From: [Clostridium] aerotolerans DSM 5434
GTDB taxonomy: Bacteria; Bacillota; Clostridia; Lachnospirales; Lachnospiraceae
Assembly (NCBI RefSeq): GCF_000687555.1
Contig: NZ_JHWJ01000015.1
Coordinates: 1 to 64,000, forward strand
Reading direction: 5' to 3'
Length of the DNA stretch: 64,000 bases
The notes under the pieces were generated by a model. It was not told the origin of the DNA, made no database searches, and was given only the letters and a program-made list of their open reading frames with translations. Positions 6,592 through 32,012 of this stretch are shown piece after piece; position 1 is the stretch's first letter; each line of letters opens with the position of its first letter. Made by a program: the position numbers and the translations under genes.

Positions 6592-8724
6592 ATGGATAAC
6601 GGCATGGATAATATGCTTGATATGTATCTCTTTGAAACCAATTCCCTTCTGGAGCAATTGGATGAACTCCTGATAGAAGCCGAAAAAGCAGGAGATTTTA
6701 CGGTGGACGATGTAAACGAAATCTTTCGTATCATGCACACCGTCAAGGGTTCCTCTGCTATGATGGAGTTTTCTTCCCTGATGCAGATTGCCCATCACAT
6801 TGAAGATTTATTCTTCTTTATTCGTGAGAATGGTTTGGATTCTCTTGACATTTCCCACAAGAGCACCCTTTTTGATTTAATGTTCCGTTCTACCGATATG
6901 CTTAGAGCAGAGGTTTCAAAGGTAGAAAACAATGAACCACTTAGTGATAATGTCGACAATCTAACTCAGGAAATTAATAGCTTCCTGAAAAAAATCAGTA
7001 AGGATAACACACAAAAGGATGCCGAAGCTAAAAGCGAGAAAGCTCCTGAGCAAAAAAAGCCCGAAGAGCCAAAAAAGGTCTCCGCCCCTGCTGTCCAGGC
7101 CGCTAATTTAGACGAAATCCGGATGGATCTGGCTGAATGTCCAGATGACAATGCTGCTTTCTTCCTCCGCCTCTTTTTTGATGAAGGCTGTGGAATGGAA
7201 AACTTAAGAGCATTTATGCTTATAAGTGCACTGAAGGAATCCGGACTAGAATTTAACTATTATCCGTCTGATATCGAAACAAACAGTCAGACCTGCGCAA
7301 CCATTATTGAGAAAGGTTTCTTTTTGACCTTTGAATCTAAAAATGATGCAGAATCTGCCATTACCCAGGTAAGTAATTTAAATAATATCCGCTCTTATGA
7401 ACTGATAGAAAATGTTCGTGTTAAAAATGCCGCCGCTGATGAAGCTCAGGCACCAGCTGCCACTGCTCCTGCCGTACGGGAAAGTGCTGCTGCAAGCGCT
7501 CCTGCTGCTGCTTCCGGACATCAGACACCAAATAAGCAGAATTTAATCAGTGTAAATCTGGCTAAGCTTGACAATCTTGTTGCAATTGTTGGTGAAATCG
7601 TTATCACAGAATCTATGGTGACCTCATCTCCTGACATTCAGAATTTAAAAAACATGGATAACTTTTTAAAGGCAACCAGACAGCTTCGCAAGCTCACAGA
7701 TGATCTTCAGGATATCGTTATGTCCCTGCGCATGGTACCGGTATCCGGTGTATTCCAGAAGATGAACCGAATTGTCAGAGATATGAAGCAAAAGCTGAAA
7801 AAGGACGTTCGCCTTACAATCGTTGGCGAGAATACCGAAGTTGATAAGTCCATAGTAGACAGCATCGGCGACCCTATTATGCATATCGTTCGTAACTCCA
7901 TGGACCATGGAATTGAAGAAACCGCAGAGGAACGTATTAAAGCTGGTAAGAATCCTCAGGGAGAGATTATTCTTTCCGCCAGTCATACTACCAACGAAGT
8001 TATTATTTCTATTAAAGATGATGGTCACGGAGTAGACCCTGCCGGCGTTCTTGCAAAGGCCAAAAAGAATGGCATTCTTACAAAGCCGGAAAACGAATAC
8101 ACTGAAAAGGAAATCCTTGCTCTTCTTCTCGCACCTGGTTTCTCTACCAACGAAGTGGTAACGGAATATTCCGGCCGTGGTGTTGGTATGGACGTTGTTA
8201 AGAAGAATGTAGAGGCAGTAGGCGGTACCGTTACTGTTACAAGTGAATTAGGAAAAGGAATGTGTACGACTTTAAAGATTCCTCTTACCATGGCAATTGT
8301 AGATGGTATGGAAATCGCTGTAGGCAAATCTGTATTTACCATTCCGATTGCTAACATCCGTCAGTCCTTTAAGGTTAAGAACGAAGACGTTATTTACGAT
8401 ACTGAGGGGAACGAGATCATCAAATGTATGAATCAGTTCTATCCAATTATTCGTATACATACCCTCTATAATATTAATACAGAAATCACGAATATTGAAG
8501 ATGGAATCCTTGTTTGGGTAGAATCCGGTGACAAGTCCTATTGCCTGTTTGTTGATGATCTGCTTGGAGAACAGCAGGTAGTTGTAAAACCGCTTCCAGT
8601 TTATTTAAATAGCTTTAACATTAAAAATTCAGGAATCTGCGGCTGTACTATCCTGGGTGATGGTAATATCAGCATCATTTTAGACGTTTTAAATCTGTAT
8701 GCTGCAGCACACAATCAATACTAA
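6592..8724 (+). CDS. cheA: Chemotaxis histidine kinase CheA
   Basis: Central kinase of the chemotaxis pathway (710 residues, usual size). Domains in order: P1 with phosphorylated His49 in MHTVKGSS; an acidic and Lys-rich linker; P2 response-regulator docking domain at about 170-280; an Ala/Pro-rich linker; P3 dimerisation helices at about 320-385; P4 ATPase with N-box MHIVRNSMDHG, DDGHG and GRGVGMDVV; and a P5 CheW-like domain from about 570. It takes receptor signals through CheW and phosphorylates CheY, CheB and CheV. It opens the cheA-cheW-cheR unit, divergent from the ylqG-like gene. AAGGCGG upstream is a modest ribosome site. Confidence 0.97.
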   Translation: MDNGMDNMLDMYLFETNSLLEQLDELLIEAEKAGDFTVDDVNEIFRIMHTVKGSSAMMEFSSLMQIAHHIEDLFFFIRENGLDSLDISHKSTLFDLMFRSTDMLRAEVSKVENNEPLSDNVDNLTQEINSFLKKISKDNTQKDAEAKSEKAPEQKKPEEPKKVSAPAVQAANLDEIRMDLAECPDDNAAFFLRLFFDEGCGMENLRAFMLISALKESGLEFNYYPSDIETNSQTCATIIEKGFFLTFESKNDAESAITQVSNLNNIRSYELIENVRVKNAAADEAQAPAATAPAVRESAAASAPAAASGHQTPNKQNLISVNLAKLDNLVAIVGEIVITESMVTSSPDIQNLKNMDNFLKATRQLRKLTDDLQDIVMSLRMVPVSGVFQKMNRIVRDMKQKLKKDVRLTIVGENTEVDKSIVDSIGDPIMHIVRNSMDHGIEETAEERIKAGKNPQGEIILSASHTTNEVIISIKDDGHGVDPAGVLAKAKKNGILTKPENEYTEKEILALLLAPGFSTNEVVTEYSGRGVGMDVVKKNVEAVGGTVTVTSELGKGMCTTLKIPLTMAIVDGMEIAVGKSVFTIPIANIRQSFKVKNEDVIYDTEGNEIIKCMNQFYPIIRIHTLYNINTEITNIEDGILVWVESGDKSYCLFVDDLLGEQQVVVKPLPVYLNSFNIKNSGICGCTILGDGNISIILDVLNLYAAAHNQY

Positions 8725-17792: not shown

Positions 17793-17960
17793 TACACACT
17801 TCCATCCTTTATTGCGAAGGTACAAACCTAATCAGCAAATCATGTATTAATGTATCTCCATATTATATTCATGATCACATGATCTTGATGAATGCACTCT
17901 TTTGTTTATTCAAGTTAAAAACATCTATTGTTACGCGCAGAAGGTTACATCTTACACTTA

Positions 17961-17987
17961 TATATCGGTTTTTATATAAATATCTTA
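17961..17987 (-). promoter_or_regulatory. Candidate sigma-28 promoter for the nucleotidyltransferase-fold gene
   Basis: On the minus strand TTAA, 15 bases, ACCGATAT. The -10 half carries the exact CCGATAT of the Bacillus flagellar sigma consensus. It would give an untranslated leader of about 160 bases. It abuts a similar box on the plus strand. Confidence 0.38.
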
Positions 17988-18011
17988 ACTTTAGTATGGA
18001 AATGTACGATA
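17985..18011 (+). promoter_or_regulatory. Candidate sigma-28 promoter for the C39-like peptidase gene
   Basis: TAAC, 15 bases, TACGATAG, with three of four -35 bases and six of eight -10 bases matching TAAA-N15-GCCGATAA. It lies inside the longer reading frame and 48 bases before GTG 18059, which supports the later start. Confidence 0.35.
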
Positions 18012-18058
18012 GATATTGTATACTTGGATATAAATTTATGATAGAAAAGGTGAATTCA

Positions 18059-18784
18059 GTGAATGGATTTTATAATATCATGCTTAAAACACTGCTCTTA
18101 ACTACCGTTCCATTATCAACATCATTTTCTCTTAATACACAAAGTACAGAACTGACAAAGCCAACTAGCATTACTCAGGAATTAATCGGTAATGGTTTTG
18201 AAGAAGCAGAGATTCCGCAAGAGGGTAAATATGATGTAATGCTAGGTAGTGTGGCCGGTCCTCTTACGTACTATAATCAAGGTGATTCCAGATGGGGAAA
18301 TTATCTTTGGGGCGGAAAAGATTCCTTATCGATCTATGGCTGCGGTCCTACCATCATGGCAATGTTAATTACCAGCCTGACTGGAAATCAGGTGCTTCCG
18401 GCAGATGCAGCAAACTGGGCAGCTTCTAATAGATGCTGGGCTCCAGGAGATGGCTCCTATCATTGTTTAATACAGCACGCTTCTTCTGCCTTTGGAATAG
18501 AAGCGACCCCTATTAGGGATTATTCGGTAAATGGCATTCAGCAGGCTCTTAATTCCGGCCATCTGGTAGTGGCATTAGTTGGCAGAGGGCACTTTACGCA
18601 GCGCGGGCATTTCCTAATTATAACCCGCATGACAGAGGATGGAAATGTAAGAATTGCTGATCCTAACAGCTATGGAAATACATCCATGGATTGGGATCCT
18701 GGAATTATCTTAAAGGAGCTGAATCATCGCGCCTCTAATGGAGGCCCTCTGTGGGCTATCGGCCTTCCCGATGTTTCAAGGTAA
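18059..18784 (+). CDS. C39-like (papain-fold) cysteine peptidase, secreted
   Basis: From GTG 18059, with AAAAGG just upstream, the protein has 241 residues and a short hydrophobic N-terminus (MLKTLLLTTVPLSTSFSL) that looks like a signal peptide. The rest is a peptidase_C39_2-type domain: YNQGDSRWGN, catalytic cysteine in IYGCGPTIMAM, histidine in GHFLIITRM and the Asp/Asn site in ADPNSYGN. The frame stays open back to 17879, but that extension has no ribosome site and contains a promoter-like box. Such enzymes cleave wall cross-links or leader peptides; the substrate here is unknown. Its end overlaps the convergent small gene by nine bases. Confidence 0.75.
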   Translation: MNGFYNIMLKTLLLTTVPLSTSFSLNTQSTELTKPTSITQELIGNGFEEAEIPQEGKYDVMLGSVAGPLTYYNQGDSRWGNYLWGGKDSLSIYGCGPTIMAMLITSLTGNQVLPADAANWAASNRCWAPGDGSYHCLIQHASSAFGIEATPIRDYSVNGIQQALNSGHLVVALVGRGHFTQRGHFLIITRMTEDGNVRIADPNSYGNTSMDWDPGIILKELNHRASNGGPLWAIGLPDVSR

Positions 18785-19631: not shown

Positions 19632-21980
19632 CTAACCACCGAATGAACTGAGCCAACTGCTTTGGGAGTTCATCTGGGATATTACGTTTTCCAGGTTTGT
19701 GAACTGCTTTACATATCGGTCCGTCTCTGTTTTTAACTGAGCTTGAAGATTTTTGATATAAGTATCAATGCTGTCTATAGATTTTTGTAAAGTATTGGTT
19801 AACACACTGTTAGGCGCATATTGAGAGCCTGCCTTTTCAATCAAAATACCTTTTGTTGCAGTGGTGGTTGATGCGTATCGATCAGTTATAGAAGTTAGCT
19901 TTGCCATAAATCCATCGCCTTCACCAGTTGAAGAGTCTTTCTTTTTGGTAAATAGCTTTTGTAAATCTTCAGGATTTTTTTCAAGCGCAGCACGAAATTT
20001 AGTCTCATCAAGTTTAAGCTTACCTTTATCTGCATAGTCAGTGCTTGTACTAATGCCAAAGGAGCTTAACATTGCCTTGTCATTTGATCCCGCATCAAAA
20101 ATAAAACGAAGGCTATCCGACAACGATTTTAATTCGCTATCATTAAACAGAATTCCAGCTTTTGCCTTCTCTTCCCACTTTTTTATCTGATCTTCTGACA
20201 TATTTTCTTTTTGTTCATCCGTTAACGGAGCATAATCCCTATTAGGTTTTGTGCTTACTTGTTTATTTACTAAATCTACAATTTCATTAAAATCTTTAAT
20301 CATATCAGTGAGAGTTGAAACAATTTGGTCACTGTTAGTTTTAGAACTTAATGTTACAGGTTCTGAGTCAGTAATTAAATTACCATTATCGTCATAACCA
20401 AACTTTCCATTAATTGTTATATTAAGACCATCTAAATTAAAGGAATTACTTCCGCGCACCAACGTTTCTGTTGGGCCGTTACCATACCGAACTGTAATCT
20501 CAGCATCTTTACCTTTTTCATAATTAAAATCATCATCTGAGCCAAAGATAGCTTTAGCATTCTCATCAAGCTCTATTTTGCCAGAAACTCCGGCTACTGT
20601 AGACAGAAATGAAAACTTATCAGTATTTGCCATATAGCTGACTTTTACACCAGCATTAGAAGAATTAATCTTATCCATAATCTCCTTCATCGACATTTCA
20701 TATGTTAATCCTTCAATCTCTGTTCCATTAATTTCCATGCTTAATTTGCCATCTGCAGTGGGTGTTAATATCTTATCTAACCCTGCTTTTGTAATAGATG
20801 ATTCAAGATTTAGGCGATTAGATTCTCCTCCTAAAATGCCAAATTCTCCTTTAGTCCCCAACAGCCCTTTATCCGCTGAAGTAATTGATAAAACAGAAGA
20901 TGTGTCGACCTTATCAGTTCCTGCTACTAAAGTCTTAAATACCAGTTTATTATCTATATTTTCTACACTTATTCTTCCTGAACCAAACTGCTTTTCTAAT
21001 TTTTCTTCTAAATCTTTTGCCAAATCAGTTATATTGGTTTTATCTCCAAGCTTTATAGATTTTGTAACACCATTATAGGTAAAACTAATATTTTTATCTT
21101 GCGTTCTTTCTAAGAATGTTTTTCTAGAATTAAGTTCTTGGGTAAGTTTCTTCATATCTTCTGAAAAACCATCCTTACTTAAGGTTCTAGCTTCTTCAGA
21201 AATCATGCTTATATCAGTAATTCCAAAGGCTTTTAACGCAGATGTACTTCCACCTGCAAACAAAACTGTATTACCAGCTGTTTTCTCTTCATCTAGCGTC
21301 ATATTTAACTTTGTAGATCCTTCTATTGTCTCTGCAGTAACATTAATTACACTGGCCAGTGTTTTATCCCCACCTATTGATACCGTTTTCAAGGATTCAT
21401 TAATAGCTTTTGCGGCACCCTCTGCATTTGAATAATCGTAATCTTCTCCAGACTTTAATGTTACATTATAAGTCTTGCTTCCATATTTAAATGTTATGTA
21501 TTCACCCTCTAAATTACTTACATCCTTGTCACTAAAATTAATAGTGCCAGTATTAATTGCCTGATCGCTCACTCCCTTATTGGAAATCTTATACGCATCC
21601 TGTGCCATACTTTTTACTCCAACAATAGAAAGAGAGTCAGATATGGAGGAGTTACCTGTAACGTTTACGTATTTACTGTTAGCACCATTGGTTGTAATAC
21701 TGCTTTTTGCCCAAAAGCTAGAACTTGAAATATTTGTTGCAGGAGAAGTATAGGAAGTGTACTTTCTAGAAAATTCCACTAGTTTGGAACTCACTGACTG
21801 ATATGCCTCCTGCTTCCAGAGTATAGTCTGTCTACTCTTATTTTGTTTTGCTATCTTAGCTCTGGTGGACGCTGTCATTCCTTCAATCAGAGTATCTCTG
21901 TCCAGTCCGCTGGCAAGACCGCCATAACCACGAATGGATGATGCTGCGCTGGTTTTATTTGTCGTTGATACTGATGCCAT
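19632..21980 (-). CDS. fliD: Flagellar filament cap protein FliD (HAP2), enlarged
   Basis: Cap protein on which flagellin subunits fold at the filament tip. The N-terminal FliD signature (IRGYGGLASGLDRDTLIEGM) and C-terminal D1/D0 helices with a long coiled coil (QKSIDSIDTYIKNLQAQL) are clear. At 782 residues it is far longer than the usual 450-600. The extra length is in the AT-rich, Ser/Thr/Lys-rich middle (about residues 200-560), which should be surface-exposed D2/D3 sequence and possibly adhesive. AAAGGAG lies seven bases upstream, and a hairpin sits just before it. Confidence 0.94.
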   Translation of the reverse strand: MASVSTTNKTSAASSIRGYGGLASGLDRDTLIEGMTASTRAKIAKQNKSRQTILWKQEAYQSVSSKLVEFSRKYTSYTSPATNISSSSFWAKSSITTNGANSKYVNVTGNSSISDSLSIVGVKSMAQDAYKISNKGVSDQAINTGTINFSDKDVSNLEGEYITFKYGSKTYNVTLKSGEDYDYSNAEGAAKAINESLKTVSIGGDKTLASVINVTAETIEGSTKLNMTLDEEKTAGNTVLFAGGSTSALKAFGITDISMISEEARTLSKDGFSEDMKKLTQELNSRKTFLERTQDKNISFTYNGVTKSIKLGDKTNITDLAKDLEEKLEKQFGSGRISVENIDNKLVFKTLVAGTDKVDTSSVLSITSADKGLLGTKGEFGILGGESNRLNLESSITKAGLDKILTPTADGKLSMEINGTEIEGLTYEMSMKEIMDKINSSNAGVKVSYMANTDKFSFLSTVAGVSGKIELDENAKAIFGSDDDFNYEKGKDAEITVRYGNGPTETLVRGSNSFNLDGLNITINGKFGYDDNGNLITDSEPVTLSSKTNSDQIVSTLTDMIKDFNEIVDLVNKQVSTKPNRDYAPLTDEQKENMSEDQIKKWEEKAKAGILFNDSELKSLSDSLRFIFDAGSNDKAMLSSFGISTSTDYADKGKLKLDETKFRAALEKNPEDLQKLFTKKKDSSTGEGDGFMAKLTSITDRYASTTTATKGILIEKAGSQYAPNSVLTNTLQKSIDSIDTYIKNLQAQLKTETDRYVKQFTNLENVISQMNSQSSWLSSFGG

Positions 21981-22007: not shown

Positions 22008-22028
22008 CCGATTTTCGTCAAAAATCGG
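22008..22028 (+). terminator. Hairpin with T run in the fliD leader
   Basis: CCGATTTT, CGTCA, AAAATCGG: an eight-pair perfect stem followed on the plus strand by TTTTTTTCTTG. On the minus strand it lies 28 bases before the fliD start, close to the AAAGGAG. As a plus-strand element it would be a terminator with no gene before it; as RNA on the minus strand it could influence fliD translation. Confidence 0.6.
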
Positions 22029-22055: not shown

Positions 22056-22083
22056 TTATCGACATATTGTATACTAAAGATAA
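22056..22083 (-). promoter_or_regulatory. Candidate sigma-28 promoter of fliD
   Basis: Minus strand TTAT, 16 bases, GTCGATAA, about 76 bases before the fliD start. The -10 half differs from consensus at one base; the -35 and spacing are imperfect. Confidence 0.35.
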
Positions 22084-22093
22084 TAGTATTATC
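22079..22093. promoter_or_regulatory. Small palindrome before the ParA-like gene
   Basis: GATAAT, AGT, ATTATC is a perfect six-base inverted repeat placed 26 bases before the TTG start, next to TATACT. It is the right size for a dimeric repressor site, possibly for autoregulation, but could be chance in AT-rich DNA. Confidence 0.3.
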
Positions 22094-22119
22094 TCAAATT
22101 ACGAATGGAGGAATAGAAC

Positions 22120-22893
22120 TTGTCAACGGTAATTACCATTACAAATCAAAAGGGCGGCGTAGGCAAAACAACCACTTCTTGCTCTCTTGCCTGCGGTTTG
22201 GCTATGAAGAAAAAAAGAGTCTTGGCAGTTGATTTAGATCCACAGGGTAACTTGGGCTTTAGCCTTGGACTTGAGATCGAATCCTGCGCTACCATATATG
22301 AAGTTTTTAAAGGAACTGCATCCTTGCAGGAAGCCATTCGGCCAGCAAAGTATTGTGATGTTATATCATCCAACATACTCCTTAGCGGTGCGGAGCTGGA
22401 ATTTACCGGGAAGCAGCGGGAAAGTATGTTGAAGAATATTCTTTCTACCGTAGCAGGTTACTATGATTATATCATTATTGATACACCTCCTGCTCTTAAT
22501 ATTCTTACGGTCAATGCATACGCTGCGGCTGATTATCTGGTAATTCCTATGGTACCAGAAATCCTTAGTCTGCTTGGCGTATCCCAGATAAAAGATACCA
22601 TTAACACGGTCCGTGCCTCTGTGAATCCGGATCTTTATGTTCTTGGAATTTTGCTTAACAAATATAACCCGAGAACTCTCCTTTCCAGGGAAGTTAAGGA
22701 AATGGCTGAGAATATCGCTGCCCAGATTGGTACCGTTGTATTTGACACTCATATCCGCTCCAGCGTCAGCGTAGCGGAAGCTCCTGCTCAGGGAGAAAGC
22801 CTTTTGGACTATGCTCCCCGCTCCAATCCAGCCTTGGATTACAAAGCTTTGGTCGAGGAAGTTCTAGAACGGATCAGGCTGCGTAAAAATTAG
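22120..22893 (+). CDS. ParA/Soj-like ATPase
   Basis: A 257-residue deviant-Walker ATPase: KGGVGKTT at residues 11-18, VDLDPQGNLG near 40, IIDTPPALNILTVNAY near 120 and LNKYNPRT near 185. Such proteins form ATP-dependent dimers that pattern cargo on the nucleoid or poles. The start is TTG 22120, with GGAGG eight bases upstream. No parB and no parS-like cluster is visible, and the neighbour is a ComFB-domain protein, so this is more likely an orphan ParA that positions flagella, chemoreceptor arrays or its partner than a chromosome partition gene. No flhF/flhG pair exists in this window. Confidence 0.88.
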   Translation: MSTVITITNQKGGVGKTTTSCSLACGLAMKKKRVLAVDLDPQGNLGFSLGLEIESCATIYEVFKGTASLQEAIRPAKYCDVISSNILLSGAELEFTGKQRESMLKNILSTVAGYYDYIIIDTPPALNILTVNAYAAADYLVIPMVPEILSLLGVSQIKDTINTVRASVNPDLYVLGILLNKYNPRTLLSREVKEMAENIAAQIGTVVFDTHIRSSVSVAEAPAQGESLLDYAPRSNPALDYKALVEEVLERIRLRKN

Positions 22894-22917
22894 TATATAT
22901 GAGAGGGGTATGAGACT

Positions 22918-24111
22918 ATGGCCAGAAAAAGCAGCAAGACAGCTCATGTAATGAATTTATTAGCGGGTGATGAACCTGAGACTTCCAAATCAGAAGCAGC
23001 AAAGGAAAACCAGGCTGCCAGTCTGAATACAGATTCTTCTGAAACGATAAAAGAACTAACCGTATTAGCTCACAAGGCTTCCATTCAGACACAGGAGGGA
23101 CCATTAACGCCCTCCCCTATATCAATCATAGATATGTCTTCTTCCTCACCTGATCCAGTTTCTGAGATGATCAGACAGCAGTTAGAAGAAGAGGAAGGAA
23201 TCACCACTGAATCTTCACGAGAAACGGCTATTGAAGCAAATGTAACTGAGACAGGAGATACTGAATCAGAAAAAGCTGTGGACGAAAATGCCAGATCCGA
23301 AAAAACGGAAGCTGGTAAAAATTATGTAGAAAAAGCTGAAATTGAAGGAATTGAAGATGAAGAGACAATTGCTGAGAAAGCAGTAACTGAAGATATTGAA
23401 GCTGAAGAAACAACTGCTGAGAAAACAATAGCTGAAGGAATTGAATCTGAAGAAACAACTACTGAGAAAGCAATAACTGAAGGAATTGAATCTACAGGAA
23501 TTGGGTCAGAAGAACTAAAGACTGAGACCCCTATTGATGATCGTAAGAAAAATGCTGTAGCTGGAGATAGTAACGAAAGCAATGCCAACTCCACTGGCAG
23601 CACGGAAGCCTTGGGTAATTTTGACAGCGGATCTGATGTTAAAGGAAATATAGGCTATGAAGAAGAGAACGCTCCAATGATCCTTACTGCTTCTGAAGTA
23701 AAAGTCATTGAGGCAGACTTTGAAGAACCAAAGAGGAATCCATCTCTTGAGCCTGAGGCTATGAAAAGCAAGGAAAGCGCATTAGCTCCGGAGACTGAGG
23801 CTATGAAAAGCAAGGATAGCGCATCTATCCCTGAGCCTGAAAAGGCAACATTTAAATATCTGAATGTTATGGAACATGTGGTTCAAAGTAAGGTGCATGA
23901 ATATGCAGCTAAATTTGATACCTGTTGTTGCGGGCATTGCATTGCAGATATAACAGCACTGACTTTGACCAATCTTCCGCCAAAGTATGTTGTGGTGAAA
24001 CCACCTACTGCATCACCTCTTTTGAATTTTTACATGAATCGTTATTCCCAGCAGGTAATTGTAGAAATAACAAAAGCCTGCTTCACGGTAAAACAAAACC
24101 CACACCATTAG
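22918..24111 (+). CDS. Acidic-repeat protein with C-terminal ComFB domain
   Basis: A 397-residue protein in two parts. Residues 1-310 are highly acidic, low in complexity and probably disordered, including a 15-residue repeat (about 143-187) and a 14-residue repeat (about 280-307). Residues 312-397 form a ComFB-like domain: YLNVMEHVVQSKV, Cys336-338 and Cys341 in DTCCCGHCIADI, ALTLTNLPPKYVV and a final NPHH. ComFB-family proteins have been reported as cyclic-dinucleotide receptors, and the cysteines suggest a metal site. It starts 25 bases after the ParA-like gene (GAGGGG nine bases from ATG), so the two form an operon. A job as c-di-GMP-dependent cargo or regulator of the ATPase is my inference. 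Confidence 0.7.
   Translation: MARKSSKTAHVMNLLAGDEPETSKSEAAKENQAASLNTDSSETIKELTVLAHKASIQTQEGPLTPSPISIIDMSSSSPDPVSEMIRQQLEEEEGITTESSRETAIEANVTETGDTESEKAVDENARSEKTEAGKNYVEKAEIEGIEDEETIAEKAVTEDIEAEETTAEKTIAEGIESEETTTEKAITEGIESTGIGSEELKTETPIDDRKKNAVAGDSNESNANSTGSTEALGNFDSGSDVKGNIGYEEENAPMILTASEVKVIEADFEEPKRNPSLEPEAMKSKESALAPETEAMKSKDSASIPEPEKATFKYLNVMEHVVQSKVHEYAAKFDTCCCGHCIADITALTLTNLPPKYVVVKPPTASPLLNFYMNRYSQQVIVEITKACFTVKQNPHH
23344..23493 (+). repeat. 45-bp tandem repeat (3.3 copies) in the ComFB-protein gene
   Basis: Three full imperfect 45-bp units and a partial fourth, each beginning GAAGGAATTGAA or a variant and coding for EGIExEETxxEKAxT. Copies two and three are very similar at the DNA level, suggesting recent expansion. 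Confidence 0.8.
23755..23838 (+). repeat. 42-bp tandem duplication in the ComFB-protein gene
   Basis: Two 42-bp units starting GAGGCTATGAAAAGCAAGGA encode EAMKSKxSA plus a Pro/Glu segment. They lie just before the ComFB domain, in the linker. Confidence 0.75.
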
Positions 24112-24123
24112 GCGTGGGTTTTT
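24095..24123. terminator. Bidirectional terminator closing the fla/che operon and the ComFB gene
   Basis: AAAACCCACACC, ATTA, GGCGTGGGTTTTT: a GC-rich stem with a T run on plus and TTTTGTTTTACC on minus. The stop codons of both convergent genes overlap inside the loop (TAG at 24109 and, on minus, TAA at 24110-24108). Confidence 0.88.
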
Positions 24124-25391
24124 CTTTCTTCTGTTAAGTCTGGTTCCTGTTCTGCACTGATGGTAAGGCTGTTCCATATGCCGTTTACAGCTTCGACGCA
24201 ATCCATATAGGTCTGGGCTAAAAATCCGGAAGGAAGACCTAATTCATCAGACATTGCTTTTACATTCTTCCACTCTGCATTTTCATAGCTGAGTATGAGT
24301 TTATAGAGGGTTCCACAAATTCCTTCTTTATTAATTAATGCTGCTTTGATTTCCTCGGCAACTGGTATCTCAGCCAGAATCTCATCTAAAGGTGCATTAA
24401 TTAAATACTGAAGGGTTGAAAACATACCCATCATATATGCTTCTGACCGGATAATTGGAAAATCCTCCACATGGTCAGAGAGAGCCATAGCAAAATTGGC
24501 TCTTAAAAACGAAAGCTTCATGACCGCTTCCAAAGCCTCATCATGATGAGAGTCGTTATTAAAGCTTAAAAGATATACCCACTGTTTTAACTGGCTGATT
24601 CCCATAGTTACCAGCGCCTGGCGAATGGAAGATACTCTCCGGCGCAAAGCAAAATATGCGGAATTTACAATTTTAAGCAGGGCATAGGTTAGAGCTGCAT
24701 CATGGCTAATGATTTCTTCGATCTGCTCAATATCTGGTTCGTCCTTCGAAACTTCCACGACCAGCTGAAAAAAGTTTCCCTGGAGAAATTCCATACGGTT
24801 TACTTTTTTAGCAAGAGCTTCGGCAACATAACTTCCCTCTACAAAGTCTGTATTGATCTCAAGAGCCAGTTCGTAATCCTCTTTGTTTTTGACGCCGGTC
24901 GCGATACATTTTTTGTCCAGGCCCCTCATGGTATTAACGAGATTGATGAGAGATGTTTTATCTTTGGAATCATGTTTGTTTCCTATATCAATCTTTATGT
25001 AAGTTGCAAAATCCAGCATAGAGAAAAAGCTTGGAGAAAACTGAAAATCATTGATAGCGAACTCATAGCCTTCTGCTCTATATTTTCGAATAATGGTTGG
25101 AGCCAGAGGGTGTATCATCACATGATCCTCAATCTGGATTACCATCTTTTCTTTATCAAAGATCTTTGGCGTATTACGAAACAGCAAAGCCGGAGTAAAA
25201 GTTACAAAAGTGAGCTTATCATCCGCAAAGTTATCGGAGTTCTGCATAAGAAAGTCCGAAATAGTATCCGCAACCGCCACGTCGGAATTGCTGTAAATGG
25301 AATTATAGTCCTTCTGAAACAATACTTCATATCCGACGATCCTGTCCTCTTTCAAAGCCTTAATGGGCTGACGAGTGACATATTTATCCAT
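24108..25391 (-). CDS. Degenerate EAL plus HDOD domain protein (YuxH-like)
   Basis: A 427-residue signalling protein. The N-terminal 200 residues follow the EAL fold (YVTRQPIKALKEDRIVGYEVLFQ, EIQIED-like strand, YIKIDIG), but EAL reads EVL and the metal-binding NLSP, DDFGTG and E-x-VE sites are altered, so phosphodiesterase activity is unlikely. Residues about 200-400 are an HDOD domain (SHDAALTYALLKIVNSAYF, SSIRQALVTMGISQLKQW). Such proteins usually act as scaffolds in motility and c-di-GMP control. GGAGG precedes the ATG by seven bases. It is the last gene of the long operon, right after cheV. Confidence 0.85.
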   Translation of the reverse strand: MDKYVTRQPIKALKEDRIVGYEVLFQKDYNSIYSNSDVAVADTISDFLMQNSDNFADDKLTFVTFTPALLFRNTPKIFDKEKMVIQIEDHVMIHPLAPTIIRKYRAEGYEFAINDFQFSPSFFSMLDFATYIKIDIGNKHDSKDKTSLINLVNTMRGLDKKCIATGVKNKEDYELALEINTDFVEGSYVAEALAKKVNRMEFLQGNFFQLVVEVSKDEPDIEQIEEIISHDAALTYALLKIVNSAYFALRRRVSSIRQALVTMGISQLKQWVYLLSFNNDSHHDEALEAVMKLSFLRANFAMALSDHVEDFPIIRSEAYMMGMFSTLQYLINAPLDEILAEIPVAEEIKAALINKEGICGTLYKLILSYENAEWKNVKAMSDELGLPSGFLAQTYMDCVEAVNGIWNSLTISAEQEPDLTEERKTHA

Positions 25392-29130: not shown

Positions 29131-29907
29131 TTATTTCCCATTTATAAAATTGGTCAAATAAAGCCTTAGCTTTTGTATGGCATTCGAATGAATCTGGGAG
29201 ATTCTGGGCTCACTGACACTCATAACCTGAGCAATCTCCTTCATATTTAATTCGTCCATATAATACAAAGAAATAACCTTTTGTTCATTTTCTTTTAAAT
29301 TATTTATGGCAGAAACAAGAACCTGCTTGAATTCTTCCTGGAGATAATGGTCCTCTGGCTGATCATTTTCATTGATGGCAGGAAGCTGAAGCACCTTTTT
29401 ATTCTCACTTCCGGCCTCTAAAACCATATCTAAGGAGAGCACGCTGTAAATATTGGTTTTACCTACAGCCTCCTGATACTTTTCCAGACTGATATTCATG
29501 TGGTCTGCGGTTTCCTTGGGTGTTGGAAAACGGCCAAGACGGTTGCACAATTCCATGGCAGCATTATCAAGATCCTTGGCATTCTTCCTCACACTTCTAG
29601 GAATCCAGTCCTGTTTTCTTGCCATGTCAATAATCATACCGCGTATCCGCTTGGAAATATACGTTTCAAACTTTACATTCATTTCAGGATCAAACTTCTC
29701 AATCCCGCTCATGATTGTAAGCACACCTTCATTTACAATATCTTCCACCTGAGCAAAGCTTAAATATACATCCCGCATTTGAATGGATATACTCTTGACC
29801 ATATACATATAACGCATTACCAGCTCATGCTTGATATTAATATCCTTGCTCCGCTTATATTTAATTAGTAACTCTTCATTGGTGCTTTGGCTAAAATCCT
29901 GTTCCAT
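29131..29907 (-). CDS. fliA: Flagellar sigma factor FliA (sigma-28/SigD/WhiG)
   Basis: RNA polymerase sigma factor for late flagellar genes. Region 2 contains YMYMVKSISIQ and EDIVNEGVLTIMSGIEKFDP; region 3 RSVRKNAKDLDNAAMEL; region 4 has the helix-turn-helix VISLYYMDELNMKEIAQVMSVSEPRISQIHS. ATG 29907 gives MEQDFS, 258 residues, the usual length; TTG 29946, overlapping the flhA stop by four bases, would add 13 residues and cannot be excluded. It follows flhA directly with no flhF or flhG between, unlike most clostridia. FlgM at 11.3 kb is its predicted inhibitor. Confidence 0.95.
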   Translation of the reverse strand: MEQDFSQSTNEELLIKYKRSKDINIKHELVMRYMYMVKSISIQMRDVYLSFAQVEDIVNEGVLTIMSGIEKFDPEMNVKFETYISKRIRGMIIDMARKQDWIPRSVRKNAKDLDNAAMELCNRLGRFPTPKETADHMNISLEKYQEAVGKTNIYSVLSLDMVLEAGSENKKVLQLPAINENDQPEDHYLQEEFKQVLVSAINNLKENEQKVISLYYMDELNMKEIAQVMSVSEPRISQIHSNAIQKLRLYLTNFINGK

Positions 29908-29942
29908 TCCGACTAACACTGCCTTTCTGACATAAAATCCTG

Positions 29943-32012
29943 TCAAACGGTAATATTTCCGACTGCCTGAATCTGAATATTATTTGCAATCTCATTAAAC
30001 GAAAGGACATATACATTGGGATAGAACTGTTCAATCAAACGATAAAAATACAGTCTGACCACCTGGCTTGTTAAAACGACCGGCTTCTGATTTAAATCAC
30101 TGAATTTCTTGATGTGTTCACCCATCTGTCCGATTACCGACTGCATTACATCAGGGCTGAGGGCAAGATACACTCCTTGTTCACCCTTTGCCATACTGCT
30201 GATGATATTTTTCTCCAAATCCGCGTCCAGGGTTAGAACCTTCATCTGCCCTCCGTCACAGAACATTCTTGTAATCGTTCTCTTTAAGGCGATTCTAATA
30301 TTTTCAGTTATAACATCGATATCCCTGGTGACAGGGATGGAATCTACAATTGTCGCAAGAATTGTCTCCATATCCTTAATGGGCACGCCCTCTTTTATAA
30401 GGTTATTAAGGATCTTTTGAAGATTTCCATATGTAAACTGGCTGGGGATCAGTTCATCAACCAGCTCTGCTGAATGCTTCTTTACATTATCAAGCAGCTG
30501 CATGACCTCCTGGCGTCCAAGCAGTTCATACGCATGCTGCTTGATGGTCTCTGAAAGATGGGTAAGCATAACCGACAACGGATCAATAACCGTATACCCG
30601 TAAATCTCAGCCATCTCCTTATTCTCAGGGCGAATCCATTTACTTGGAATTCCATAGGCAGGTTCCACGGTTTCAATTCCATCTACCTCTCCAGAAAGCA
30701 TTGGGGGTTCCAGGGCCAGATAGTAGTCTACCAGAATTTCTCCCTTAGTCACTTCTTCTCCTCTGATTTTAATCACATACTGATTGGTGTTTAAACTGGA
30801 ACTGTCTCTCAGCCTGACTGATGGTATTACAAATCCCATATCCTGGGCGTACTGCCTGCGGAATATAACGATACGGTTAATCATCTTTCCACCGCTGCTC
30901 TCATCAATCAGCGGGATTAAACTGTAACCAAATTCCATCTCTATTGGTTCAACATTAATTAAAGAATAAACATTATTTACATCACGGTAATAGGATTCCT
31001 CATCAGAGGGCTGATGAGCTGCTTCCTCTACTGCCTGAGTGGCTTCTAACATCTGGTCTCTGACGGCTGACTGTTTTACTTTCCTCTCAAGATGAAAACC
31101 GGAAGCAACAAGCAAGACTGCCATAAGAGCCAGCTGTACCTTAGGCATTCCAGGTACGAGCATAAGTACTACCATGACAAATCCCGTAAGCATAATTGCT
31201 TTTGGCTGTGCCGTGAACTGGGAGGATACGTCTTCATTTAAGCTGCCTTCGGATACCGCTCTGGTTACAATCATACCGGTTGCCGTTGCAATTAACAGGG
31301 AAGGAATCTGGCTGACAAGGCCATCACCTACCGTAGCAATGCTGTATACCGTCATTACCTCGGAAAATGGCATAGTAGCCTGAACCATACCAATTACCGC
31401 ACCACCGATAAAGTTGACCGCTGCGATAATAAGAGACATGATAGCGTCTCCCTTTACGAACTTGGTGGCACCATCCATGGCTCCGTAGAAATCGGCTTCC
31501 TTCTGAATTTTATATCGTCTAAGCTTTGCTTCCTGCTCATCGATTAAACCAGAACTTAAATCTGCATCTATGGCCATCTGCTTACCAGGCATGGCGTCCA
31601 GAGTAAATCTGGCTGCTACTTCTGATACACGCTCCGTACCTTTGGTAATAACAAGAAAGTTCATCAAAACAATGATAATGAATATGATAAAACCAACAAC
31701 AATATTTCCCTGTAAAACGAAATCGCCAAATGCTTTGATTACCTGTCCTGAGGCCCCGTGGTTCGACAAAATATTTCTGGTGGAAGACACGTTTAATCCC
31801 AGACGTAAAAGGGTAGTAATCAAGAGCAGGGAAGGGAATATGGAAAATTCCAATGGCTCTCTAATGTTCATGCTTATCAGCAAGATAATCATGGACAGGG
31901 ATATATTTATGATAATCATTACATCCATAAAGAACGGAGGCAATGGAATAATCAACAGAAGTACAATCATAATGACAAATACTACTACGGAATTTTTCAG
32001 TAAGTTCTTCAT
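29943..32012 (-). CDS. flhA: Flagellar export gate protein FlhA
   Basis: Major export-gate component, 689 residues. Eight predicted membrane segments occupy about residues 1-310, with the conserved cytoplasmic FHIPEP-region sequence (DAMPGKQMAIDADLSSGLID near 150). A linker leads to the large cytoplasmic domain that docks chaperone-substrate complexes and forms the ring. The length is standard. It lies between flhB and fliA. Only a weak ribosome site (GGTG) precedes the ATG, which may mean translation coupled to flhB or a lower yield. Confidence 0.97.
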   Translation of the reverse strand: MKNLLKNSVVVFVIMIVLLLIIPLPPFFMDVMIIINISLSMIILLISMNIREPLEFSIFPSLLLITTLLRLGLNVSSTRNILSNHGASGQVIKAFGDFVLQGNIVVGFIIFIIIVLMNFLVITKGTERVSEVAARFTLDAMPGKQMAIDADLSSGLIDEQEAKLRRYKIQKEADFYGAMDGATKFVKGDAIMSLIIAAVNFIGGAVIGMVQATMPFSEVMTVYSIATVGDGLVSQIPSLLIATATGMIVTRAVSEGSLNEDVSSQFTAQPKAIMLTGFVMVVLMLVPGMPKVQLALMAVLLVASGFHLERKVKQSAVRDQMLEATQAVEEAAHQPSDEESYYRDVNNVYSLINVEPIEMEFGYSLIPLIDESSGGKMINRIVIFRRQYAQDMGFVIPSVRLRDSSSLNTNQYVIKIRGEEVTKGEILVDYYLALEPPMLSGEVDGIETVEPAYGIPSKWIRPENKEMAEIYGYTVIDPLSVMLTHLSETIKQHAYELLGRQEVMQLLDNVKKHSAELVDELIPSQFTYGNLQKILNNLIKEGVPIKDMETILATIVDSIPVTRDIDVITENIRIALKRTITRMFCDGGQMKVLTLDADLEKNIISSMAKGEQGVYLALSPDVMQSVIGQMGEHIKKFSDLNQKPVVLTSQVVRLYFYRLIEQFYPNVYVLSFNEIANNIQIQAVGNITV

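Follow-up and report, generated by a model that had tools for sequence, protein, structure and literature searches.

A ParA-ComFB gene pair of FlhF-less flagellar clusters in Clostridia as a candidate for flagellation control

The FlhF-FlhG pair has been portrayed as a conserved switch that underlies many flagellation patterns, and for enteric bacteria without these two proteins the same source calls regulated versus random flagellation an open question (PMC12826062). Among ParA ATPases with adaptors, ParB is reported to act on ParA through N-terminal residues, and McdB is presented as an activator unrelated to ParB (PMC9178275); each ParA/MinD protein of one bacterium is described as serving one cargo (PMC10241942). 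ComFB of B. subtilis is reported to be an obligate dimer with a Cys3 + Cys/His zinc site (PMC4381287), cyanobacterial ComFB to bind cyclic di-AMP (c-di-AMP) and also cyclic di-GMP (c-di-GMP) (PMC12313861), and CdgR to act via its c-di-GMP-free form (PMC13075795). Here we describe two adjacent genes, one for a ParA-type ATPase and one for a protein ending in a ComFB domain, in the 4.73-Mb genome of [Clostridium] aerotolerans DSM 5434; the window analyzed comprises 64,000 nucleotides (nt), i.e., positions 1 to 64,000 of contig NZ_JHWJ01000015.1.

Both genes are intact and are separated by 24 nt; a preliminary description, made from the sequence alone, had recognized the pair and put the gap at 25 bases.

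22120..22893, + strand: parA, small ParA-type ATPase, TTG start, 257 amino acids (aa); Pfam AAA_31, E 4.9e-53
22918..24111, + strand: ComFB-tether gene, encoding the presumed dedicated partner of ParA, 397 aa; Pfam ComFB, E 8.4e-15, residues 316-395

No description of such a pair was found in literature titles and abstract beginnings (a search whose coverage excluded most subscription papers and bioRxiv). The pair represents a concrete, deletable candidate for flagellation control in many Lachnospiraceae without FlhF.

Distribution of the pair and of FlhF

Among 195 relatives, FlhA (cut-off 1e-50) was found in 133, of which 95 carried a strong FlhF (E 5.2e-37 or better; 92 of them exceeding the curated FlhF cut-off) and 38 did not. 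A ParA of the type found in the pair was present in 36 of the 38 FlhF-less flagellates, in none of the 95 FlhF-bearing ones and in none of the 62 relatives without FlhA. ParA scores were clearly split, with 395.8-475.6 bits for the pair type versus 294.9, 290.6 and 282.4 for the next matches. The two exceptions were G020, in which the contig with the flagellar genes breaks off within cheV, and G150, in which flhA is split between contigs. We also examined a sample of the class (393 genomes, at least 90% complete; FlhA cut-off 1e-100), which shares at least five flagellate genomes with the set of relatives. Here, FlhA was found in 154 genomes and FlhF in 138 (136 with FlhA), and pair-type ParA (378-472 bits; next match 281) occurred in 6 of the 18 genomes with FlhA and no FlhF and in none of the 136 with both. 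Pair-type ParA and FlhF were thus never found together in the 195 and 393 genomes searched, a test that the preliminary description had proposed; the FlhF search covered these two sets only, and flhG was checked only in the window's own genome and at the flhA-fliA junction. As a separate observation, one genus (G272, G351, G443, G546 and G572; loci L078, L079 and L127-L129) has flagella of the same lineage and neither FlhF nor pair-type ParA.

ComFB was found in 81 of the 195 relatives. The pair was present in 23 of the 24 genomes of the same genus and in 12 further genomes, with ComFB behind a ParA that shares 50-100% identity with the window's own and gaps of -29 to 35 nt in these 35 loci; the remaining same-genus genome, G020, gave no ComFB match. 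Of the relatives' 84 ComFB matches, 72 were read as loci (short-form ones mostly over 3.2 kb) and the other 12 were assessed by ParA profile only. Other ComFB loci (L002-L031, L052, L058 and L069-L071) showed no such ParA within the stretch examined, and non-paired G104 and G163 carry long open reading frames (ORFs) with ComFB and other N-terminal parts. One of these loci, L058 (approx. 7300-8150, G104), encodes a protein that ends in ComFB and by eye has a response-regulator-receiver-like start, i.e., a ComFB fusion near signaling, and L052 (G021:C90:40310-40549) is a second, short ComFB without a ParA neighbor in a same-genus genome.

Scanning a single genome from each of 84,980 species with the motif KT[AD]HV, found near the start of the partner, confirmed 165 tether loci, of which the best 80 were kept as named loci. 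In all 80, a ParA gene lies directly upstream of the tether gene on the same strand (gaps of -140 to 253 nt, partly reflecting start-codon choice). Together with the 35 relatives' loci, this pairing is beyond chance. Of the 80 named loci, 75 have flagellar genes near the pair (most of the remaining five being limited by contig ends), as do 35/35 relatives' loci; the earlier view of a self-contained pair near flagellar genes extends across genera and families. The commonest neighbors in the named loci were fliD (75) and a gene with EAL and HDOD domains (65), the latter being missing from three Anaerotignum loci in which the remainder of the cluster is seen. The pair was flipped beside fliD in 57 loci, co-linear with the fla operon in 18 (4-212 nt behind the EAL gene) and undecided in five. 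Carriers, by title, include Lacrimispora, Muricomes, Sporofaciens, Mediterraneibacter, Dorea sp., Ohessyouella, Anaerotignum, Pseudoflavonifractor and Oscillibacter, although titles of metagenome-assembled genomes among them may be wrong.

The ATPase and its tethered partner

The deviant Walker A motif KGGVGKTT was found in 83 of the 86 pair ParA rows analyzed, and the best fold matches of the pair ParA were Soj/ParA structures. In a tree with Soj-type ParAs, FlhG (KGGVGK ORFs taken from FlhF loci) and MinD only, the pair ParAs formed one clade beside Soj (98/89). When the three next-best ParAs (L252:4640-5401, L253:1181-1969 and L254:3518-4279), all from FlhF-bearing genomes, were added, these and the pair ParAs joined (100/99) apart from Soj. 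In this enlarged tree two pair rows, by sequence most likely G039 and G070 of a divergent subtype, joined the three added rows (99/93), so that the pair ParAs no longer formed one clade; two of the 20 rows labelled Soj (L233 and L234 by sequence) left the Soj group. We call the branch plasmid-type because the next-best ParAs adjoin replication initiators (two of the three; RepA_N and Rep3) and, in each case directly behind, a gene for a small protein with a basic start. These small proteins begin with MAKKSF, MPKKDF and MAKKDF, at least two have a low-complexity linker, and none gave a Pfam match above cut-off; neither a ComFB nor a KTxHV partner was found with the three ParAs. Partners in the pair begin with MA[RK]K[ST], which by eye resembles the small plasmid-type partners. 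In L252, the gene after the small partner looks CheW-like by eye.

On thin evidence (three rows, two of them with long branches), the pair ParA thus appears to group with plasmid-type partition ParAs and not with chromosomal Soj, FlhG or MinD, and the "orphan Soj" label of the preliminary description has to be amended. A relocated FlhG was rejected, as the pair ParA fell outside the FlhG clade in both trees, and descent from chromosomal Soj was given up once the three next-best ParAs had moved the pair to the plasmid-type ParAs. A ParABS system was also rejected, since neither ParB nor parS was found beside the pair ParA; as previously noted, the window has no parS-like site at up to three mismatches, and the single ParB found genome-wide is encoded on a different contig, immediately following another ParA that was taken as Soj. 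The genome's other ParA-class proteins, named from their sequences, are this ParB-adjacent one, a MinD-like protein, a 397-aa protein and an ArsA-like protein; no FlhG was seen among them. For Soj, R189 and R218 are reported as DNA-binding residues (PMC3778016; R189 also in PMC10120649), and the equivalent of R189 is an arginine in 82 of the 86 pair rows and likewise in the three plasmid-type ParAs. The ParA tail of L101 carries RGRGRPRKH, which by eye is AT-hook-like.

The partner comprises four parts in the window, listed here together with two diverged partners from other genomes.

22918..22968, + strand: N-terminal basic/amphipathic motif MARKSSKTAHVMNLLAG (KTxHVLNLL type), residues 1-17
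23119..23196, + strand: second short tether motif, ISIID...DPVSEMIRQQLEEEE, residues 68-93
23197..23862, + strand: acidic low-complexity tether, from sequence
23863..24102, + strand: ComFB domain with zinc loop C336-x-C338-x2-C341; His at the end of the protein
L101:8757-9320 and L100:8308-8856: Pfam-negative partners in two genomes of one family (G417, G535)

The two short motifs had been missed in the preliminary description. Because the scan searched with KT[AD]HV, invariance of the N-terminal motif among the 80 named loci arises by construction; KTxHV was, however, also found in 17 of 19 tethers gathered independently of it via the ComFB family. In the named tethers, KTxHV is flanked by L in 80/80 and then by [LI] in 80/80, and nearly all have R or K before the motif. 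The second motif was present in 75 of the 80 tethers, as compared to a mean of 0.64 and a maximum of 3 in shuffled sequences, with a pattern relaxed after inspection (38/80 with the stricter one). The tether itself, pooled over the 80 homologues, contains 16.5% E, 7.2% D and 5.8% K+R, with neither C nor W, and the partners range from 154 to 480 aa in total length.

For the ComFB domain, the Pfam match scored 55 bits (cut-off 25), while the NCBIfam model of Bacillus ComFB stayed below its cut-off; the partner profile matched 4wai (B. subtilis ComFB, E 1e-6) and 8hja (a c-di-GMP receptor, E 3.3e-4). The cysteine cluster reported earlier is indeed the ComFB zinc loop, although its pattern is C-x-C-x2-C and not CCCxxC. 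CxCxxC was found in 80/80 partners and P[RH]H near the end in 76/80, and the C-terminal His is likely the fourth zinc ligand. One alignment was dropped, as its only invariant columns indicated partner rows placed over the ParA P-loop, and was replaced by one with partner rows trimmed to the domain. Pfam found only ComFB on the window's partner and no recognized DNA-binding domain. The domain has diverged beyond recognition by Pfam in the L100 and L101 partners, yet KTRQVMNLI and KTKHVMDLV, respectively, stay; L101 has lost the zinc cysteines as well. The N-terminal motif thus outlasts the ComFB domain in L101.

Flagellar surroundings and evolutionary history

The pair lies within a flagellar cluster in which fliD, fliS, cheD, cheC and flhA were confirmed by Pfam, and fliA and an FlgF-type gene by NCBIfam.

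19632..21980, - strand: fliD, commonest neighbor of the pair; Pfam FliD_C + FliD_N
22008..22028, + strand: hairpin + T-run in the parA leader, the upstream palindrome; terminator-like, z -2.2
24095..24122, both strands: stem usable as a terminator on either strand, common to comFB and the EAL-HDOD gene
24108..25391, - strand: EAL + HDOD gene (Pfam), common neighbor; EAL degenerate-looking by eye
29131..32012, - strand: fliA + flhA, directly joined; flhA overlaps fliA (29943/29946)

The setting beside fliD with a terminator common to comFB and the EAL-HDOD gene was correctly read in the preliminary description. The stop codons of the two genes overlap within the stem, which folds far better than shuffled sequences (z -4.3 and -4.9 for the two strands). 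The palindrome upstream of parA also exists as claimed, but such terminator-like matches are not rare in this region (4 found versus 2.0 expected by chance). The usual site of flhF and flhG, between flhA and fliA, is empty in the window, and flhA and fliA are at most 199 nt apart in 58/58 named loci that show both. The claim that the window lacks flhF extends to the genome, which gave only two weak FlhF matches, the best (E 6.7e-20) at the level of relatives in the signal recognition particle (SRP) family. Using a crude pattern, we found no sigma-28-like promoter directed toward parA in 58 flipped intergenic regions and a sigma-28-like site toward fliD in 24 of them. The fliD-directed site TATTTAAAGTATACTATATGCCGAT recurs exactly in many of these 24 loci (e.g., L158, L162 and L175). 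A C39-peptidase-like protein (Pfam; window 17879-18784, + strand) is kept near fliS in many pair loci.

The number of evolutionary events was assessed on an FlhA tree of 93 of the 107 rows (built by a quick method and rooted at the midpoint, with near-identical rows from the same genus thinned and some genomes in duplicate), in which the G020 row was labelled as carrying the pair by lineage although the pair was not found there. The 55 pair rows grouped with 9 FlhF-less rows lacking the pair (Shimodaira-Hasegawa-like approximate likelihood ratio test, 96), apart from 26 FlhF rows; five pair-less rows of one genus shared an unresolved fork with pair rows, and three further FlhF-less rows grouped with an FlhF row, i.e., a separate loss. 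The rows nearest to the window's genome were Clostridium sp. 12(A) and Lacrimispora algidixylanolytica, the latter in Lachnospirales. Pair and FlhF systems occupy different genera within one family, and the Soj of the window's genome grouped with four family members, three with FlhF and one without FlhA. As this grouping crosses the divide between pair and FlhF, the history of the flagellar cluster seems to be separate; for comparison, transfer has been invoked in print for the enterobacterial flagellar cluster without FlhF/FlhG (PMC12826062). Many independent replacements of FlhF-FlhG were rejected, as the tree needs few events. Because so few events are implied, we only hypothesize that the pair replaced FlhF-FlhG.

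Proposed role and likeness to known systems

We propose that the pair would be a two-gene ATPase/adaptor module of FlhF-less flagellar clusters in Lachnospirales and other Clostridia. The partner would follow a plan of basic N-terminal end and flexible linker, in which a dimeric zinc ComFB replaces a short C-terminal domain; kinship with plasmid partition pairs suggests that the module originated by swapping the adaptor's end. The N-terminal motif would contact ParA and set its ATP cycle, in the manner of ParB and the small partners of partition systems, and ComFB dimers would read c-di-GMP or c-di-AMP (the latter is as possible a ligand as the former) and hold or sense the cargo. The dinucleotide-gated ParA cycle would then govern the number and site of flagellar basal bodies, as FlhF-FlhG does in sister lineages. 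The positioning or clutch module put forward in the preliminary description is partly supported, by the conservation of the pair, its flagellar setting and the lack of FlhF in the carriers searched. Control of flagellar number or placement by the pair is probable, whereas ParA-partner contact, ATPase control, ligand and cargo are what we infer. As a whole, the proposal that a partition ATPase was recruited for a flagellar function and, through an adaptor sensing a cyclic dinucleotide, controls flagellar number or placement is put forward tentatively, at a little under an even chance. The bolder idea of a second, independent solution to flagellar number and placement, in which a plasmid-type ATPase and a dinucleotide-gated ComFB adaptor stand in for FlhF-FlhG, is possible though rather doubtful. 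If true, this substitution would concern a flagellar lineage that is common among Clostridia of the gut, and a second-messenger receptor domain would sit inside the adaptor of a ParA system. To our knowledge, no other adaptor of a ParA system has such a domain.

Several observations weigh against this proposal. Flagella can do without both FlhF and pair-type ParA, as the class sample includes 18 flagellates without FlhF, 12 of which lack pair-type ParA too. The pair label needs two changes on the FlhA tree, of which starred branches force only one, and the tree is compatible with a single origin of the pair. The equivalent of Soj R218 is replaced in 86/86 pair rows, which decides little because the three plasmid-type ParAs also lack it. 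G039 and G070 carry a different N-terminal motif, and the C-terminal region of their ParAs differs too. Structure prediction had been suggested in the preliminary description; in an AlphaFold model of a read-through ParA-partner chain the ParA and ComFB domains were confident, but the N-terminal motif helix reached a predicted local distance difference test score of only approx. 50 (approx. 45-48 in a second chain with a longer linker), and neither chain, each modeled with one ParA, gave a confident docking of ParA and partner. Moreover, the carrier genus Lacrimispora includes L. sanguinis, for which peritrichous flagellation is reported (PMC12578346), so that no striking flagellation pattern demands a positioner.

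The strongest rival, in our view unlikely but deserving of attention, is a switch without positioning, in which a dinucleotide-gated ParA-ATP/ComFB complex would act on flagellar expression, export or motor in the manner of FleN-FleQ or BcsRQ-BcsE. ParA/MinD-class ATPases do form complexes with c-di-GMP-linked proteins (titles of PDB entries 6ybb and 8p53), and cyanobacterial ComFB is reported to alter levels of pilus and phototaxis proteins (PMC12313861); the pair ParA, however, belongs to the partition branch and by ranking is not FleN/FlhG- or BcsQ-like (no search aimed at a FleQ- or Bcs-like partner was made). It is also unlikely, and distinctly so, that the pair has the chemoreceptor array or some other chemotaxis component as its cargo and places receptor clusters in a ParC-like way, with ComFB tuning the process. 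That ParA-type proteins place arrays in other bacteria (PMC10241942) and that cheV occurs in 65 and cheC + cheD in 62 of the 80 named loci would fit an array cargo, but fliD is commoner (75/80) and the direct neighbor, the link with FlhF absence concerns flagella, and Pfam found only ComFB on the window's partner (no search aimed at ParP was made).

Finally, the pair may have some other role, e.g., as a leftover partition system, and be co-inherited with the flagellar cluster by linkage only. The few independent events on the FlhA tree and the plasmid-type kin of its ParA are consistent with such a passenger. We nevertheless consider it improbable, as the pair is kept in 36 of 38 FlhF-less flagellate relatives at ParA identities down to approx. 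50%, pair-type ParA is absent from all 62 relatives without FlhA, and the partner has no DNA-binding domain recognized by Pfam.

Among known systems, FlhF-FlhG resembles the pair as a two-gene NTPase module encoded among flagellar genes. The pair, however, has no SRP-type GTPase, its ATPase falls outside the FlhG and MinD groups, and the N-terminal DQAxxLR helix described for FlhG (PMC12826062) is absent; there is no room for it because the pair ParA starts 10 residues ahead of the P-loop KGG. ComFB/CdgR receptors share the domain, with a zinc loop and fourth ligand as reported for B. subtilis ComFB (PMC4381287), but are short proteins without a ParA, whereas the pair's partners reach the lengths given above. 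McdA-McdB and ParA-ParB likewise combine a ParA ATPase with a neighboring adaptor gene; here, ComFB is on the adaptor, and there is neither parS nor a carboxysome (for McdB, see PMC9178275). Plasmid type Ib partition pairs share the ATPase branch, the gene order and the partner's basic start and flexible linker, although here the partner ends in ComFB, the genes lie in a flagellar cluster and no replication initiator adjoins. FleN works with FleQ, and BcsRQ with BcsE. These systems, compared here by PDB titles, also link a ParA/MinD-class ATPase to c-di-GMP, but with an ATPase of another branch and an unrelated receptor.

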